Below the pieces are notes generated by a model. It did no database searches. It had not been told where the DNA came from and saw only the letters and a list, made by a program, of their open reading frames with translations. A DNA stretch of 64,000 nucleotides from Meghimatium bilineatum (taxonomy: Eukaryota > Mollusca > Gastropoda > Stylommatophora > Philomycidae): positions 8,611,640-8,675,639 of the forward strand of contig CM067298.1 of the NCBI GenBank assembly GCA_034231615.1. The letters run 5' to 3'. Shown piece by piece: positions 1,312 to 50,644 of the stretch. Every line of letters begins with the position of its first letter. Within the stretch, counting starts at the first letter, position 1. The translations under genes and the position numbers were made by a program.

Positions 1312-1319
1312 TACACACA
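1264..1319. repeat. CA/GCAC microsatellite
   Basis: Compound (AC)n, (GCAC)n and (AC)n tract. A short (TA)n tract follows at about 1448-1462 and a (TTC)n tract at 1522-1541. Confidence 0.95.
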
Positions 1320-2220
1320 AATATTAATTTAATTACCGCTTTATTCAATATAATCCGTAGTGTGGATTGTTAATACTTTCTTGATTGAATCATATATTTC
1401 AGACAAGATTGAATTATTTAGTTATTTAGCAATATACATTCACATTATATATATATATATACACACATCATTAGGTGCAGTATAGACTGGATTAGGCGAT
1501 CGTTGATCTCCACTGCTCTTTTCTTCTTCTTCTTCTTCTTCTATTTCACAGTTCACCATGTCTACACTGCAAGTCCGGCTGTCTTGACAGATGCTGCTGT
1601 GTTTAAATGCTCCTCAGTGCTCCCATACATCTGTCTCTGCATATTTTGTATCAGTGCTCCCATACATCTGCTTCTGCATATTTTGCTCATCCCCTAACTG
1701 GTTTAGTTTCCTGCAGTCTTGCACGATATTCCACTGTCAATGCTGTAATAATGAACAAAGAATTGATGGAATCAATTTTAATCTATTTACGTGGCTTTTT
1801 CGTCTGTTGTATACTGTCCAGAAGGTAATTAATATCTCCCCTGTCAAGATAAAGGTAGTTATGTTTTGGCTGGTCGACTTTCCTAACATCTTTGATGGGG
1901 ATCGTCTTGTCTCGGTTGGTGATTTGTAGATAACATGTCTTCACAACTCTCTATTTCCAGTATCTTTTATTAGTAAAGTATCGTTGTTGACGCTTTGCCA
2001 TGCCAGGATGTCAAACTATCTAATATTGTCTCAGTCTATCGCCCTCGAGTTCTCTTGCCTTGTATAATACCCGTTGTAACTAGATTCTCCAGACTCCCTT
2101 GTCTCATAATTTCCCAAAAAGTAACAATAGTCTCTTTCTGGTATTATTAAGTAACAACGTCTCTCATTCGCTCTCGGCGTCTCCTCGTTAGTTATATTAG
2201 AAATAGCTCTTTAAAAATCT
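1320..2220. other. No recognisable gene
   Basis: Two copies of a roughly 40-bp segment with the core CTCCCATACATCTG lie at 1610-1690. Nothing else could be assigned. Confidence 0.4.
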
Positions 2221-2335: not shown

Positions 2336-4745
2336 GCTATGAACAAGGACTAAGACTATTGGATTTTGCTAATAAATTTAAATTTACTCTTGCAAATACA
2401 ACATTCCCACACAAGCTTTCCAGAAGAACAACGTGGCATGCTCCAAAAGCAGACATACATAATCAAATTGATTTCATTCTTACACCGAGAAAATTCAAGT
2501 CCAGCATAAACAAAGCACAAACAAGAACTTTTCCAGGAGCAGACATCGGTAGTGACCATGATATGGTTCTATTGACGATCAAAATTAAGCTTAAAAAGAA
2601 TCATAAGCAAAACAAATGCACACGATTAAGATTTAATTTAGAAAAATTGAAAAAATCCAGAAATAGCAGAGATATTTGAGGCAACTGTGGGAGGAAAATT
2701 TGCAGCTCTAAGCCTTGTAAATGAAGATGTTAATTCTCTCACAGAAACCATGAAAGGAACTTTATAAGAATCAGCAACTGAAATACTAGGGACAAGAAGA
2801 ATAACACACAAACCTTGGGTAACAGATGACATCCTAAAATTGTGTGACGAACGGAGGGAAATGAAAAAGATTAAGAAAGAGGCCCCTGAAATGTCAGGGC
2901 AATATAGCAAAATAAACAAAAACATCAGAAGGAAAATGAAACAAACACAAGAAGTGTGGCTAAAGGAAACATGCGAAACCATCAATTGAAGTATTAAAAG
3001 CGGAAACAGTAAGGTAGCATACGACACTCTAAGAAAGATAACACAGCCAAATAGACCAAAGATATCTACAATACAAGACAAACACGGATATATACTCAAT
3101 GAAACAACAGATATAGTGAAAAGATGGACAGAGTATTGCAAGGAGCTGTATAACTGCAAGTGTAATCCTGACTACACGATATTACAGAATTCTGAACTAA
3201 ACAACAGAGAAATAGGAAATGCAGAAATTCTAGTAGATGAAATAAAAGAGGCCATACGAACATTGAAAGGAGGGAAGTCACCTGATGTAGACAACATTCC
3301 AGCAGAATTGTTGAAATACGGGGGAATTAATGTGGTAAATATTATGACCAAAATATGCCAAAATATATGGAACACAAAACAATGGCCCACTGATTGGACA
3401 CAATCACTAATAATACCAATTCCCAAGAAAGGAAATTTGAAAGTGTGTACAAATTACAGAACAATTAGCCTTATAACACACCCCAGTAAAGTGATGCTCA
3501 AAATACTACTTAACAGAATAAAACACAAGACAGAAGAAATAATTGCAGAAGAACAAGCTGGCTTCAGAGCAAACAGAAGCACTGTTGAAAATATATTTAA
3601 CATCCGAACACTAATCGAAAAACATATTCAGTACCAACGTGATCTATACCACAACTTCATTGACTTTACAAAGGCCTTTGATCGTGTTTGGCATGATGGT
3701 CTGTGGCACATACTGAGGAAATTTAATTTTGACACCACAATTATAGACATTATTGAAGCTCTGTACGAAAATGCAAATAGTGCTGTCTTGTCAAACAATA
3801 CAATTGGAGAGTTCTTCAAAACAACTGTGTGAGTTCGACAGGGATGCATAATGTCCCCAGTACTTTTTAAACATATACTTAGAGCACATCATACAAGAGA
3901 CATTACATGACTACAACACGTCTATATCGATCGGAGGTCGCCCTATTTGCAACTTGCGTTTCGCTGATGATATTGATCTTATAGCTGGGTCAGAACAATC
4001 ATTGCAAGAATTAACATCAAAGTTAGAAAAAGTTACCAGCAAGTACGGAATGGAAATCAATTCAGATAAGAGCAAAATCTTGGTAAACAGCAGAGACACT
4101 GAAAACCAGACTAATATCGTGATGAATGGACATAAGCTTGAGGTGGTAAATACCTTCAAATACCTCGGATCCAGTATATGCAGCGATGGTAAATGCAAAG
4201 CAGAACTAAAAATAAGGCTGGAGATGGCTTCAGCGTCCTTGTCAAGGCTAACTGTGATTTGGAAAAACAACATCAGTGTTGGAGTGAAAATCAAACTGTA
4301 TAGGTCACTGGTGCTTTCTGATGTGTTGTATGGTTGTGAGAGTTGGACACTCACTGCGGACATGGAGAGAAGATTACAGACTTTCGAGTATAAATGCTAC
4401 AGAAGAATTCCACGAATTTCCTATAGGGAACATAAGACCAATGTGTACATAAGAAATAAAGTAGAGATGTGTGCAGGTGTCCAGGAGCCATTGCTTTCAA
4501 TAGTGAAACGACGAAAACTAGCATAGTTCGGACATGTATGCAGGCACGATTCCTTGTCAAAAACAATACTGCAGGGAACTGTCGAGGAAGGAAGAAGCAG
4601 AGGAGGACAAATAAAGACATGGACAGACAACATCAAGGAATGGACAGGGCTAGATATTTCCACACTCATCCGCATCGCTGAGGATAGAATTCGCTGGAGG
4701 ACTCTGTGTGCTGAAGCATCCAATGTGGTACCCCTACGACCCTGA
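2336..4745 (+). pseudogene. Endonuclease-reverse transcriptase pseudogene of an RTE-like LINE
   Basis: The endonuclease C-terminus is recognised by HNQIDFILTPR and the catalytic-type motif GADIGSDHDMVLL (about 2455-2570). The reading then shifts frame near 2656 and runs through GGKSPDVDNIPAELL (fingers), FIDFTKAFDRVWHDGL (motif A), VRQGCIMSPVLF (motif B) and FADDIDLIAGS (motif C, FADD in place of YADD). It ends with YGCESWTL and a C-terminal FGHVCRHDSLSKTIL / WTDNIKEWTGLDIS / PLRP stretch. Breaks seen are in-frame stops at 2765, 2987 and 3830, an extra A near 3867 that shifts frame, and a TGG-to-TAG change at 4525. The protein would mediate target-primed reverse transcription, but this copy cannot be active. 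The 5' half of the endonuclease is missing. Confidence 0.9.
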
Positions 4746-5699: not shown

Positions 5700-6536
5700 C
5701 AATTATAAATGATTCCCAGAAAATATAGGAGTGATGCAAGGATGTGTCATGTCACCGATGTTATTTAGTATTGCAATGGATTGGGTCATGCGAAATTTCA
5801 CAGCCGATAAAGATCGAGGTATCGAGTGACTCGGAAAATAAATTCTGAAAGATATCGACTTTTCATACGACCTAGCGTTACTTAGCTCAACTCACAGAGA
5901 TTCCCAAGAAAAAAAGCCTTTGATTATTCTCTGCACAACTTGGGCTTTAAATCAATACATCCAAAACACAAATATTTGACCTTACCAAAAACCAACGGAC
6001 ATCAAACTAAACGACAACACTCTTGAAAAAGTCAACAACTTCACATACCTTGGCATCAAGCTATCAACAACAAGAGATTCATCAACAGAAATATCACACC
6101 GTATTGCACTAGCTGTTAACTCATTCAATAAACTATCAAATATCTGGCATTCAAAAACACTAAGAAATGACACAAAACTCAAAATCTTCAACTCCTGCAT
6201 AATTCCAACATTAACATATGGATGCGAAAGTTGGAAAGCAACATCAAAATTAGAGCAAAGACTGAACAGTTGTCAGACAAGAATCAAAACAATACTATGT
6301 ATCCACCTATATTAGAAAGGGTCGCTGGAATTACATTGGACACGCGCTGCGAATGGATACTGAAAGACTCCCCTGTCAAGTTCTGATGTGGTCACTAAAG
6401 GGTAAGAGAAAACGAGGAAGACAAAAAGAAAATTTACGTAAAACTATCACAAGAGAACGTTTCACCATCGGTATCAGAAACAATGAAGACCTAAAGCAAA
6501 TTGCAATTAAACGAGAGACATAGAAATCTATGATAT
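5700..6536 (+). pseudogene. RT palm-to-C-terminus fragment of a second LINE family
   Basis: Recognisable blocks, in order, are IGVMQGCVMSPMLF (motif B), AMDWVMR, a damaged motif C (SYDLALLSSTHRD), LHNLGF, NNFTYLGIKLSTTRD, PTLTYGCESWKATSK and a C-terminal GHALRMDTERLPCQVL / GKRKRGRQKENLRKT block ending at a TAG near 6522. Frameshifts separate the blocks, and motif A and everything upstream are missing. The last 80 bases match a minus-strand fragment at 42905-43015, so this family is present at least twice. The 3' end abuts the I-like element that begins near 6537. Confidence 0.85.
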
Positions 6537-30242: not shown

Positions 30243-31810
30243 TTAAAAGACGTTCGGGTTTCGAGCTATGACACCAATGGAAGCTTGATATGCAATACTA
30301 TTATGACGTCTCAGAATGCCTGTAACTCCTTCAATCCACCTTCTTGTTGGTCCTCTTCTGTATCTTGCTGTTTCAATTTTTATTCTGTATACTTCTCCAG
30401 CTAGCCAATAAGGATTCAGCTTATTTAAGTGACCGAGCTCTTTCAGTTTCTGTTTTTCAATATATTTGTCCGCAGACGTTTTTCCGAAAGTTATTGTAAT
30501 CTCTTTATTTCTCACATGATCTTCTGTCTGTTGCTTTTCTTAGACATCTCATTTCACACGCAGTAATTTTTCTCTCTTGTTCTTTTGTTAGTGTCCATGT
30601 CTGACATTGTCCATTTCATACAATTATGTTGATATATAGAGTGGATTTATGATGACTTATTGTATCCATTGGGATTGATATAATTCATGTCGTTTCCTTT
30701 TTGAATTATTGACTCGAGCTATCTGTCCATTCTTCTGTCGTCTGTAAAAAACCTCCCAAAATATTCAAATTCCTTCACTTGTTTCAGTAGTTGATCATTT
30801 ATCTTTATGTTGGTTATAATGGGTTTTCTGCCTATAGACATTACTTATGTTTTTTTCTGTATTTTATTCTCATGTTGTGTTTGAGGCAGCTTTCGTTGAG
30901 TAGGTTTATGTGATCTTGCAGCTCTTCACTTGAACTGTGAGGTAGGCACTGATCGTCAGCAAAAAGTAGTTCAGTTAGTTCATATGTGGATGGTAAGCTT
31001 CTGGTGGTGTTTCTACTGCTTTTGTAATATTATCCATATAAATGATAAACAATAATGGTGATAAGACACATCCATTTCTACTCCTGATGTTATTGAAAAC
31101 GAGTTTGTAAGCCCTTCATTTGTTCTAACTGTACTTTCACTACCTTTGTATATGGCTCTTACACAGTCTAATAATTCTCCTTATATTCCACACTTTTCTA
31201 TAATACTCCAGAAAAGTACTCTATTTATTCGGTCGAAAGCCTTCTTTTGATCTATAAAAGCAATATTCATTTGGTTTTTGTATTCTGTTGTCTTTTCTAT
31301 TTTATTGTCTAATTTATAGTAGAGAATATATTGCGTCTGTACACTATCTTCCTTTTCTACACCCGAACTGTTCTTGGCTAAGCACTGGATCTATAATAGG
31401 TCTTATCCATTTTTCAATAATCTTAGCGACCATTTTATCGACATGATTACGCGAGAAGATACCTCTGTATGTGCCACAATCTTGCTTGCTTCATTGTTTA
31501 TTTCATATTGGTACTATGATAGCTCTTTACGCATCTGTTATTGGTACTATAATAGCTCTTTACGCATCTGTTATTGGTACTATGATAGCTCTTTACGCAT
31601 CTGTTATTGGTACTATGATAGCTCTTTACGCATCTGTTATTGGTACTATAATAGCTCTTTACGCATCTGTTGGGTACAGCTCATTCTTTTCAAGTCTTTC
31701 TAAAGATATGAAGAAACCAGGCTACTCAAGTCTCTCCACCTGCATTGTATTTCGTCGTAGAGTATTTCATCAATTCCCGCCGATTTATTCTTTGGGTTGT
31801 TCTTAATAGC
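30243..31810 (-). pseudogene. RT pseudogene, minus strand, with an internal array
   Basis: In minus-strand order: NPKNKSAGIDEILYDEI (fingers), NELYPTDA then RAIIVPI (amplified as a 33-bp array), IIEKWIRPIIDP, a shifted EQFGCRKGR-like block, NIAFIDQKKAFDRINRVLFW (motif A), a degenerate motif B (SGVEMDVSYHH), LLFADDQCLP (motif C region) and a C-terminus KLKELGHLNKLNPYWLAGEV / RGPTRRWIEGV. Frames change several times. The endonuclease part is not seen. It is one more LINE family, different from those at 2.3 and 5.7 kb. Confidence 0.82.
31507..31673. repeat. 33-bp tandem repeat, five copies, inside RT coding sequence
   Basis: Unit TTGGTACTATGATAGCTCTT plus TACGCATCTGTTA. On the minus strand each unit reads TDA-stop-RAIIVPI, matching the RT pattern PTDWRKAIIVPI that should occur once at this point. 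The period keeps the frame. Confidence 0.88.
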
Positions 31811-37765: not shown

Positions 37766-38110
37766 TATGGTCAAAAATTATAAGTATATTTTTGTTTGCT
37801 ATTTTATGTTTTAGTGATCGCACATTTAATGTTACACGTGACCAATGGTTTCATTTACTTTGGCAGCGTTCTCAAACAAGCTGAAAACATTGACACTGAG
37901 ATAAAGAACAGAATAGCAAAAACTAGGGTCACACTTTGAAGACTGCGCAAAAATGTATGGGATAGAAAGGGAATAATGATTGCCACACAACTCATAGTTT
38001 ACCAGGCAGCAGTAATAGCATCATTTCTTTATACATGCGAAACATGGACAGTATACCGCCAAATACGATAGAAGACTCAACTATTTCCACCTAAACTACT
38101 TTCGTAAGAT

Positions 38111-38121
38111 ACTTAACACCC
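38111..38121. repeat. TSD, left copy
   Basis: ACTTAACACCC, identical to 38517-38527. Confidence 0.9.
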
Positions 38122-38516
38122 TTTAACACCTTTACTTCGTGATTTTTGTGTGTGCCGGGACATGCGGGAGTCTGGGGTAATGAGAGAGCAGATAGGTTGA
38201 CCGCAGACGCTGCTACTACGACTGTTGGTGGAGCGAAGGATCGAGCAGGCATTTTGAACGCTCTACGGAAAACGCACGAACAAATGACTCTATAAATGAC
38301 GATGACTCTTGTTCCATGACTAGAATAAGGGAGTTTGGTTTGAAATGTGGTGTCGCTAAAGAGGAGCAATTTAGTAGGCAAGAATGAATGATGGTCAGTC
38401 AACGACGTACTGGGACCGTCAGTCAACGTGTAATGGCGGCTACAATCAAGGAGAGATCTGAGCACCTATGGACTTGTCCGGAGTGCAGTGACGATGATCC
38501 GACGACTAACTAACTA
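38122..38516 (+). mobile_element. I/Nimb-like 3' fragment nested in the LINE
   Basis: Plus strand: VPGHAGVWGNERADRLTADA (RNase H end), then frames with IREFGLKCGVAKEE-type sequence and SEHLWTCPECSDDDPTTN with the stop in CTAACTAACTAA. Flanked by 11-bp direct repeats ACTTAACACCC at 38111-38121 and 38517-38527. Confidence 0.92.
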
Positions 38517-38527
38517 ACTTAACACCC
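38517..38527. repeat. TSD, right copy
   Basis: ACTTAACACCC. Its first bases could also be counted as part of the CTAA tail. Confidence 0.88.
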
Positions 38528-39064
38528 ATTGGTGGGATAAAATACCAGACAGTGAAGTAGTAATAACATTTTAATCTCTAAGCAGATACACAGTGTTCAT
38601 GAAGGTACATACATGATATGCAAGTCACCTGATCTGCATGTAAGATAGTCGTTTACCATACTACTGTTAAACGGAGAACTCCGGACTGTGTGCTGCAAGG
38701 CCAGAGAACAGAAAAAGCGTTTAAATCACACCCTATGGACATGAATGACTCACTTAAACATAGACATAAATTAATTGGAGAGTCCTACACAAGACAGATC
38801 AGACTGGCGCCACAGCATCAAGAGTGGTGCAGCAGCTGCAGAGAATCTCATACAGCATGCTCCAGAACAAAAGCGCGCTAGAAGAAAGTCAAGAGCTGCA
38901 CAATGTCCCACAGACTCCTCCCACACATGATTAGAATGAGGTAGACTATTCCAGCCACAAATATGACTTATTAATCACAGTCAGGCACATCGCAGACATC
39001 ACCATCTCCATCATCACCCTAGTTGAACCGAATTGTCATAACTAATTGCGACGGAATATCAACA

Positions 39065-40695: not shown

Positions 40696-41094
40696 TAGCG
40701 GCATGTATTTGTTTGTGTTTTCATTTAATATGTCTTGAAGTTTTTATAGGCGATGACGTTTTGTCCTCCGGTAAATTTGTTCTTAATAAAGGAATTTTGG
40801 TAGAAACGTAAATTATTCAAGTATCATCGGTTTATTTGTAGTGATTTAAAAAAATAACATTAACCCGTATTTCCACCTACAATTTGTCTTGTCAGACGAA
40901 AATACTACCATTAATTGCTTCCCTTTCGGCACCAGGAACACAAAGAACGTTATTTTAATACACAATGTATACTGTTTGCACTTATTTTATCTTTTAGACG
41001 TCAGCTCTTCCTCTAGCCTTCCATCCATTGATTTTCGATCAGATGTGATCGATGACACGGACTCCATTTTTAATATCACTTAACTGCATTTTTG

Positions 41095-41152
41095 TTAATT
41101 ATTCATAAGCACATTATTGCTCATTATTCATAAGCACATTATTGTTAATTAT
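41095..41152. repeat. 25-bp minisatellite, left of the chimera
   Basis: Units of TTAATTATTCATAAGCACAT plus TATTG. Equivalent units resume at 42065-42118. Confidence 0.85.
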
Positions 41153-41301
41153 GCCGGGAGTTATTGCTTGCTCCTGTAATCCAGCTACTTGGAGGCTTGA
41201 GGTGGAGGACGGTTTGAGGGCAGGGGTTCCGCTCTCAGACGTACGATGTCAATCGGGTGTCCGCACTAAACTCGGCATCAATATACTGATCTCTTGGGAG
41301 C
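41153..41301 (+). pseudogene. 7SL (SRP) RNA 5' fragment fused to a LINE
   Basis: Starts GCCGGGAGTTATTGCTTGCT and has the conserved 7SL Alu-domain blocks CCTGTAATCCAGCTACTTGG, AGGCTTGAGG and GGACGGTTTGAGG, then TCAATCGGGTGTCCGCACTA and CTCGGCATCAATAT, ending at TGGGAGC. It therefore begins at RNA nucleotide 1 and stops at about nucleotide 149 of roughly 300, where LINE sequence starts without a gap. It lacks the S domain, so it cannot be a functional SRP RNA. It is not a full Pol III gene, because upstream sequence is minisatellite. Confidence 0.92.
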
Positions 41302-42064
41302 TTAGACTGGCAAAAGCGAGTGCTGTATTTGGCAGTATACGCAACAATGTATGGGACAGAAGAGGTATAAGAACAAATTTCAAGTATATCATGCTGCTGT
41401 TATACCAACCCTACTATACGCTTGCGAAACGGGGACAGTGAATGCTAGACATGCAAGAAAATTAAATAATTTCCATCTTACCTGCCTACGTAAATTACTA
41501 AACATCCATTGGTGGGACAAAGTACCAGACTATGAGGTCTTGGAAAAATCAACCTCAATAAGCATCCACAGAATACTTATGAAGGCGCAAGCACGCTGGG
41601 CAGGCCATCTTGTGCGTATGGAGAACTCACGTTTGCCAAAACAAATATATTATGGAACACTCAAGGCAGGATTTCGAAAAGCTGGTGGACAGAAAAAGCG
41701 CTTCAAAGACACGCAAAAGTCATCACTGAAACATTTTAACATTGACGTAGACGCTTGGGAGAGCCTCGCTCAGGATAGAACAGCATGGCGTTACAGCATT
41801 AGAACGGGAGCACTAGCGGCGGAAGAGTCCAGACAAGATACTGCAAGACAGAAGCGGACACGTAGAAAAGATAAAACATCTCAACCTCACACAGATACCT
41901 TCTATTGTTGTCAATTCTGTAAAAGAACATTTTGTGCGCGCATTGGACTTGCTAGTCATTTAAAAACGCACTATTAACTTTTATTATTTTATTATTTATT
42001 GTTATTATTATTATGGTTGAGTTTTTGGTCATCGTCGATCACGACGAACGAACATCACATCATC
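41302..42064 (+). mobile_element. LINE 3' portion of the 7SL-LINE chimera
   Basis: Starts at RLAKASAVFGSIRNNVWDRR, about 41307, in the RT thumb region and runs to the LINE 3' end. One frameshift lies near 41365. After it a 208-codon frame includes HAAVIPTLLYACETGTV, HLTCLRKLLNIHWWDKVPD, ILMKAQARWAGHLVRM and a terminal zinc finger CCQFCKRTFCARIGLASHLK with a stop at 41977. The 3' UTR is about 85 bp and ends in ATC repeats. Flanks ATTGTTAATTAT at 41141-41152 and 42065-42076 are consistent with a TSD but also with the surrounding array. Confidence 0.9.
41351..41977 (+). pseudogene. RT C-terminal domain with C2H2-type zinc finger
   Basis: 208 codons open without a stop, the best preserved RT piece in the window. 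It begins after the frameshift and lacks all catalytic motifs. The end shows C-x2-C-x12-H-x4-H spacing typical of the tail of this LINE family. The polypeptide would not be an enzyme. It survives simply because the insertion is recent. Confidence 0.85.
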
Positions 42065-42118
42065 ATTGTTAATTATTCATAACCACATCATTGTTAATTA
42101 TTCATAACTGCATTATTG
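42065..42118. repeat. 25-bp minisatellite, right of the chimera
   Basis: Same TTAATTATTCATAACCACAT-type units as 41095-41152. Confidence 0.82.
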
Positions 42119-42364
42119 TTCAGGAAATTTAAGTTGGAAACATCCAAAATTATGCAAATACTAGTTAACTTCATGATTACAATTTTCAAAATTTTAATTT
42201 TTCAGCAATTAGAACATTTAACGAACAGTATTCCAAACATGTAATTTTCCTTTTGTTTACTTCCGCCATCTTGAATTAACCGGTGAGCTGACAGTTTACT
42301 GATTCCAAATAATAACAAAAACATTATAAATTATTAGCATAATTTTGTTTTTCAACTTGGTATC

Positions 42365-45559: not shown

Positions 45560-45842
45560 AACAAATACATCCCGAGTTTATGAACAACGCTGCCCTCGCA
45601 AATATATTATGGTTCCAGATATCCCGAGTTTCTGAACAACGCTGTCCCCGTAAACATATTATGGCTCCAGACATCCCGAGTTTCTGAACAGCGCTGTCCC
45701 CGTAAACATATTATGGCTCCAGACATCCCGAGTTTCTGAACAACGCTGACCCCGCAAACATATTATGGCTACAAACATCCCGAGTTTCTGAACAACGCTG
45801 CCCTCGCAAACATATTATGGCTCCAGACATCCCGAGTTTCTG
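45560..45842. repeat. 52-bp tandem repeat, five copies
   Basis: Unit ATCCCGAGTTTCTGAACAAC plus GCTGTCCCCGTAAACATATT. It abuts the RT fragment that starts at 45843. Confidence 0.93.
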
Positions 45843-46205
45843 CCGTGTATTCTCTGATGTTGGGGTCTGTAAAGAAATAATTCATTGAGATGTCTTTGTA
45901 CTTTGCATTGGTCTACCACGGGTTCGCTATCCTTCAATCAGTTCTCCGAATAGTATTTATTTTGGGATGCTGGAGTTCAGCATTCTGCGGACGTGACCCA
46001 GCAAACGCAATACATTCCTATTAAGTAATTTCATAGCATATGGTAGCTAAGTGCGGGGTAAAACTTCCATGTTGGTGATTATGCCGTGGCATTCATTGTT
46101 TAAGATTGTGCAGAGACATCTTAGATGAAAGATGTCAATTTTCCTCTCATGTTTGGTGTAGACAGTCCACATTTCGGATCCATAGCAGATAGTGTGCTCA
46201 ACGAT
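45843..46205 (-). pseudogene. RT C-terminal fragment, minus strand
   Basis: Reads CYGSEMWTVYTKHERKIDIF, HLRCLCTILN, ITNMEVLPRT, stop, then LLNRNVLRLLGHVRRMLNSS, ILFGELIEG, stop, RTRGRP. This is the typical order Y-G-S-E-x-W, H-L-R-C-L, R-L-G-H-V-R-R, G-E-L-x-x-G of a LINE thumb and C-terminal domain. The catalytic palm is absent. Confidence 0.82.
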
Positions 46206-46675
46206 AACGTTTGATAAGCCTGTAGCTTAGTCTTCAAGTACAATAATTATATGTGAACGTATGCGTATTGTCTAGAAAATCATTCAGTCTTACAAATGCT
46301 ATGTTGATGGTTATATCCTGTTTATTCTTTTGAGAATTTCCCAAAACTATTCCTGTAGTGAAGAATAAGCTTATATTACAGTAATCCTATTGTAGCATAT
46401 GGAGGAAAAGAGGTTTGTAAACACGATCACACGAGGCTTGTTATAAATCATGGCATTGAGCATTATTTGGAAAACAATTTTCAAACAATTCAACATCAGT
46501 GGACATGACATTTGTGACGTTTTTCATCATTTCTCAGTCGTCTTAGTATATTTGATAATGATTTGTTTCGCCATTCCAATAATGGAATTTTTAGAATTAT
46601 TTCAGTGAGCAGTTCTTATTTTGGAGATATAGCATTGCCATTATTTTTAGACAATTTAAAAACATTTTAACTGTG
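46206..46675. other. No recognisable gene
   Basis: May include shifted upstream parts of the RT fragment, but I could not read them. Confidence 0.35.
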
Positions 46676-50539: not shown

Positions 50540-50573
50540 CTAACACACACACACACGCACGCACGCATGTACA

Positions 50574-50632
<59 letters not shown>
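50540..50632. repeat. CA and TA microsatellites
   Basis: (AC)n/(GCAC)n then about 55 bp of (TA)n. Confidence 0.95.
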
Positions 50633-50635
<3 letters not shown>

Positions 50636-50644
50636 CACATGAAA

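Follow-up and report, generated by a model that had tools for sequence, protein, structure and literature searches.

A partial 7SL RNA retrocopy fused directly to the 3' part of a LINE within a split minisatellite

Rare fusion events are the supposed starting point of SINEs headed by 7SL RNA, Alu among them. Among mammals, the available part of PMC13174262 describes small-RNA/L1 chimeras comprising U6-L1 and five newer partner types, including 7SL/L1, with a few to 21 loci for each newer type. The available text of PMC2104539 likewise lists 7SL as a partner in LINE chimeras and states that chimeras have, as a rule, a full-length 5' part. It further describes MINE of Magnaporthe, in which WEIRD RNA is fused to the MGL LINE in 33 bipartite elements with full-length WEIRD; two WEIRD fusions have duplications of 12 and 14 bp, and enclosing duplications are reported for the chimera class. 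In Anolis, U6 is fused to L1-, L2- and RTE-like LINEs, with three chimeras of each type, according to the accessible portion of PMC4476161. A sequence-only reading of the locus described below had assigned 7SL-derived families mainly to primates, rodents and tree shrews, a range that holds only in part, since PMC7245038, in the excerpt available, also reports SINE1-1_EBu of hagfish, an amplified 7SL-headed SINE family outside Euarchontoglires with internally deleted 7SL, and models how such a SINE originated there. No invertebrate 7SL/LINE chimera was named in the titles or abstract openings of the literature searched.

The window, the whole stretch of 64,000 nucleotides that was analysed (G000:C1:8611640-8675639), belongs to an assembly of 1.61 Gb in 32 contigs, and its positions 41153-42064 were confirmed to carry a 7SL (SRP) RNA retrocopy fused to the 3' part of a LINE. 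With the stretch cut at 41303, the Metazoa_SRP model RF00017 (gathering score 70 bits) matched 41153-41303 on the plus strand at model positions 1-152 with 78.7 bits and an E value of 1.2e-20, a significant score that bears out the proposed 7SL identity and rules out chance similarity as the source of the match. The same part scored 40.8 bits (E 4.4e-7) in a scan of the whole uncut window, falling short of the gathering score for lack of the RNA's 3' half, and an Rfam scan of the whole window at default gathering thresholds returned 0 matches. Position 41153 corresponds to 7SL nucleotide (nt) 1, also position 1 of the model, so the claim that the copy begins exactly at the RNA 5' end is correct; it spans nt 1-151 of about 298. 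Fold energies were ordinary for the 149-nt 7SL part (z -0.78), its first 48 nt (-0.76) and the LINE 3' end (-0.77).

A BLAST search of the 1.61 Gb with the 7SL gene on C14 gave nine 7SL-like places (9/9 candidates scored), namely three full genes, the window, and the loci L013, L024, L025, L026 and L027; an earlier genome search with 7SL nt 1-149 as query had given five (5/5 candidates scored). The full genes are L010 on C14 and a divergent pair, L011 and L012, on C20. Full-model scores, obtained for two of the three, were 270 bits (L010) and 279 bits (L011). L011 and L012 are near-identical (299/300 bases) and are placed head to head at G000:C20:50542649-50544663, with some 1.4 kb between them. 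The nearest host gene to the window copy was L010, with 10/151 bases differing compared with 18/151 for L011; BLAST aligned the copy to L010 over nt 1-151 at 93%, and the window has the L010 base at all eight sites that discriminate L010 from L011 in nt 1-151.

The window, L010 and seven LINE copies (L002-L008) were aligned across the switch point (41303-41304, plus strand). The C14 gene reads GGGAGCTTGAGAT, and 7SL identity therefore extends to 41303 (nt 151). At the junction this gene has GGGAGCTT then GAGAT and the window has GGGAGCTT then AGACTGG, while 6/7 LINE copies read AACAAT then AGACTGG, with AACAAA in L003. The base matching 41303 is accordingly T in six LINE copies and A in L003, so that the templates overlap by 1 nt at most; 7SL ends at 41303, and the LINE starts at 41303 or 41304, with one T shared that suits either template. 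The sequence-only reading was right about the 7SL identity but had ended the copy at 41301 (nt ~149), with the junction at 41301/41302; the C14 gene and the seven LINE copies place it two bases further on, at 41303/41304. The GGAG tetraloop at the apex of SRP helix 6 (41297-41300, plus strand; located by the loop marks in Rfam's structure annotation and also present in L010 and L011) ends three bases ahead of the switch point, and the available part of PMC8185352 names the tip of the tetraloop as the binding site of SRP19. A helix 6 break directly after 41301 was considered and dropped, the C14 gene having UU there too.

The 5'-truncated LINE (41304-42064, plus strand) comprises the family's 3' 761 bases, with the end of the RT-protein region, a C-terminal Cys-His motif (read by eye), the 3' UTR and a CAT-rich tail. 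An open stretch at 41306-41977 (plus strand), defined from the ORF list and tblastn frames, takes in the C-terminal end of the LINE protein with its stop codon; the LINE is in the frame of 41304 up to about 41373, where 7 nt are deleted (a gap relative to L002, L006 and L008), and thereafter in the frame of 41306. The part is 90.7-97.2% identical to the seven genome copies, and upstream of AGACTGG all seven continue with their own coding sequence, absent from the window. At 42064 it ends in the family 3' tail, which six of the seven copies share before diverging (L002 lacks the tail), in accordance with the claim that the LINE runs to its 3' terminus.

Of 242 candidates compared with the LINE protein, 161 were relatives at E <= 0.001, the best of them 69% identical over 90%; several have an upstream RT domain, and some carry RVT_1 in precomputed Pfam data. 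Named relatives, on which the view of a non-mammalian host is based, came from molluscs, lancelet, a fish and a tapeworm record, and also from a land snail. The LINE is likely non-L1, and we presume that it resembles RTE-type elements. Four of seven relatives in tblastn (P0003, P0006, P0007 and P0015) reached upstream of 41304 by 11, 10, 9 and 42 residues, respectively; protein homology across the 7SL part was rejected and these overhangs were put down to chance, since the underlying DNA is 7SL and the seven LINE copies have another sequence at that place. Broken LINE fragments of the same protein family (26-59% identity) were also seen at window 37805-38978, 3945-4721 and 5737-6535 and, on the minus strand, at 45780-46208 and 30853-31053. 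Pattern scans of the genome-contig and viral-contig collections found 0 stretches, and a protein scan of the viral contigs matched three, none of them a relative. Several microRNA-family matches on both strands at window 50557-50643, all under their own gathering scores, are probably low-complexity sequence.

Two other 7SL-like places are also fusions. L013 (C19:46866242; L013:1501-1731) joins 7SL nt 1 to ~145 to the 5' start of a SINE of which most of the middle is missing and the 3' end is present; the same SINE occurs in L015-L017, and a genome search with the L013 tail gave four places, L013 and three others (4/4 scored). We take this SINE to be tRNA-like from a box B-like motif. The single-copy L013 fusion has an exact 13-bp duplication and the plan of a 7SL-headed SINE. 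Its 7SL part differs from L011 at 10/140 bases and from L010 at 13/140, and ends within nt 143-149, where GG to GGAGC is common to 7SL and the SINE 5' end. In L026 (C15:18845314; about 1316-1537, minus strand) the 7SL part covers nt 76-113, shows no difference from L011 in these 38 bases and is joined to the 3' end of a LINE of the window's family (96.8% over 185). No letters shared by 7SL and LINE were seen at its junction, and a duplication search found at longest 4 exact bases, or 6 with one mismatch, so that target-primed insertion is not proven for L026. The window, L026 and L013 thus show three different junctions, with 7SL incomplete in all. Among the remaining places, L024 and L025 are diverged 7SL copies without a match to the window's LINE or the L013 SINE, L025 having a possible 10-bp duplication, and L027 (G000:C19:33441292; L027:1501-1536 and flanks) has 7SL from nt 1 to about nt 41, a tandem duplication of 8 bases and no target-site duplication above 4 bases.

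The window fusion interrupts a 25-bp minisatellite, whose left half lies at 41087-41152 (TRF period 25, 2.6 copies) and whose right half lies at 42077-42120 (within TRF 42061-42120; delimited by the empty-site join). Joining 41152 to 42077 restored the period at 23/25 positions, the best of 48 offsets; the next-best offset gave 19/25 and was one period off. The 12 bases before 41153 (ATTGTTAATTAT, 41141-41152) recur exactly at 42065-42076 (ATTGTTAATTAT), the next best end in 42050-42094 matching 2 bases, and the identity is 15/16 if extended to 41137. This duplication is good but imperfect evidence of a target site because the array itself repeats and would give some match on its own, and a phase shift of 12-16 bases within a 25-bp array is only moderately telling. 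It encloses both parts together; the parts have the same direction with zero bases between them, and the inner junction at 41303/41304 shows no duplication above 3 bases and no A-run or tail.

These observations make it very probable that the fusion is a chimeric retrocopy from one target-primed insertion, a single, non-amplified relic; the two further 7SL fusions, L026 and L013, also speak for this reading. The locus shows the start at the RNA 5' end, the 5'-truncated LINE with its family 3' end, the common direction and direct join, and the enclosing short direct repeats of such retrocopies. Its 5' part is not full-length, and this does not exclude membership because the available part of PMC13174262 accepts partial 28S and tRNA parts. 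The sequence-only reading had proposed a 7SL version of the U6-L1 template-switch chimera, made by a LINE, a proposal supported by the exact 7SL 5' end, the family LINE 3' end, the enclosing duplication, the split minisatellite and the lack of an inner tail or duplication. In the proposed course of events, a LINE endonuclease would nick the minisatellite, and reverse transcriptase would start at the 3' tail of the LINE RNA, copy about 760 bases and leave this RNA within the coding region. It would then take 7SL RNA as a new template just beyond the helix 6 tip (GGAG) and copy it to its 5' end, after which the copy would be attached across the break. As for the 7SL template, either a fragment cut close to the loop of helix 6 or an intact RNA, entered at an internal position, may have served.

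The alternative that best survives places the join at the RNA stage, with a piece of 7SL that stops close to the tip of helix 6 ligated to a fragment of LINE RNA and the fusion then copied as a single template. We consider this route possible but on balance unlikely. It predicts identical DNA, counts among the two routes put forward for U6-L1 in the available part of PMC13174262, and draws on the processing of 7SL into fragments of 20-200 nt, described in the accessible text of PMC8185352. The helix 6 tip, an exposed loop that a nuclease could cut, is where both the window copy (nt 150/151) and L013 (nt 143-149) end, as ligation of such fragments would lead one to expect. Against it, the shared GG to GGAGC of L013 is easier to reconcile with a cDNA end that annealed there than with a blunt ligation, and L026, which has no visible shared letters, ends off the helix 6 tip at nt 113.

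The break in helix 6 raises a further proposal, that 7SL is a repeated landing site of LINE reverse transcriptase here, preferentially entered at the exposed GGAG tip, to which the growing copy would anneal by its 3' end, and that the C19 7SL-SINE fusion illustrates the birth of a 7SL-headed SINE without mammalian L1. We regard this combined proposal as doubtful. Two of three fusion ends lie within about 8 bases of each other at the tip, in copies nearest to two different 7SL genes, and a break common to two of three fusions is suggestive only. We held back from calling helix 6 a proven hot spot because two of 3-4 break points would fall within 8 bases of each other by chance in ~15 to 30% of cases by our own rough arithmetic.

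Returning to the window, insertion of the two parts in separate events, with the LINE going in first and a truncated 7SL retrocopy landing precisely at the LINE's 5' end, or in the opposite order, is very improbable. It draws on an age contrast: the 7SL part, with 10/151 differences, seems older than the LINE part, with 17 private changes over 715 sites (Fisher p 0.016; changes counted against six copies, with the interrupted L008 left out). Both parts should be of the same age after a single event, unless the 7SL template gene was lost or is unassembled. Nine of the ten differences of the 7SL part from the C14 gene are at G, six of these G to A, a pattern unlike the private changes of the LINE part; such a missing source gene could account for these differences, as could damage suffered by the RNA or by its copy. 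Separate insertions are opposed by the inner junction without tail or duplication, the single duplication enclosing both parts, the 7SL 3' half not being found at the locus, and the common direction of the parts with no base between them.

Membership in an amplified family of this genome, be it a SINE or a composite, with a 7SL head and a LINE tail has next to no probability. A 7SL Alu-domain start with a LINE 3' tail is the plan of a SINE founder, and the available text of PMC7245038 describes SINE1-1_EBu as a 7SL head on an RTE-tailed SINE. The sequence-only reading had suggested that, if recurrent, the junction could have founded a 7SL-derived family, but no second copy was found among the nine 7SL-like places of the BLAST search (1.61 Gb), 7SL nt 1-151 with this junction being present at 1/9; no amplified family was therefore detected, and a recurrent junction family is rejected at BLAST sensitivity. 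For a 308-nt junction query, all 39 other genome matches among the 40 scored of 1161 candidates covered the LINE side only, starting at query base 151-153 and lacking 7SL. The three fusions have differing junctions, and the single junction copy stands against the many uniform copies of a 7SL-derived SINE family (SINE1). An assembly join is equally negligible, given the enclosing duplication, the minisatellite period restored on removal of the block, and a 7SL part identical to none of the three host genes.

The preferred reading of the window fusion as a one-event chimeric retrocopy places it in a known class, as mammalian 7SL/LINE chimeras are already published (PMC13174262 and PMC2104539, in the parts available), and probably extends 7SL capture beyond mammalian L1. 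With three single-copy fusions and locatable 7SL genes, founding events can be viewed here apart from later amplification; the helix 6 tip as a favoured entry is a wider suggestion that can be checked in other genomes by the same searches. Like the mammalian L1 chimeras, the locus has a 5' RNA copy, a 3' truncated LINE, a common direction, direct fusion and an enclosing duplication, but its host is probably an invertebrate and its LINE likely non-L1. It also departs from the full-length 5' part that the available portion of PMC2104539 gives as the rule, its 7SL being cut at nt 151. The Anolis chimeras are alike in that a LINE outside mammalian L1 switched to a small RNA, but they have U6 as partner and a vertebrate host. 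As in MINE, one LINE was repeatedly joined to one RNA and enclosing duplications occur, the 33 MINE elements comparing with two 7SL fusions to one LINE family and one to a SINE, all with incomplete 7SL. SINE1-1_EBu shares the 7SL head on a tailed retroposon, a plan similar to that of the 7SL-SINE fusion L013, but it is amplified and its 7SL is internally deleted, whereas the fusions described here are single copies with 3'-cut 7SL.
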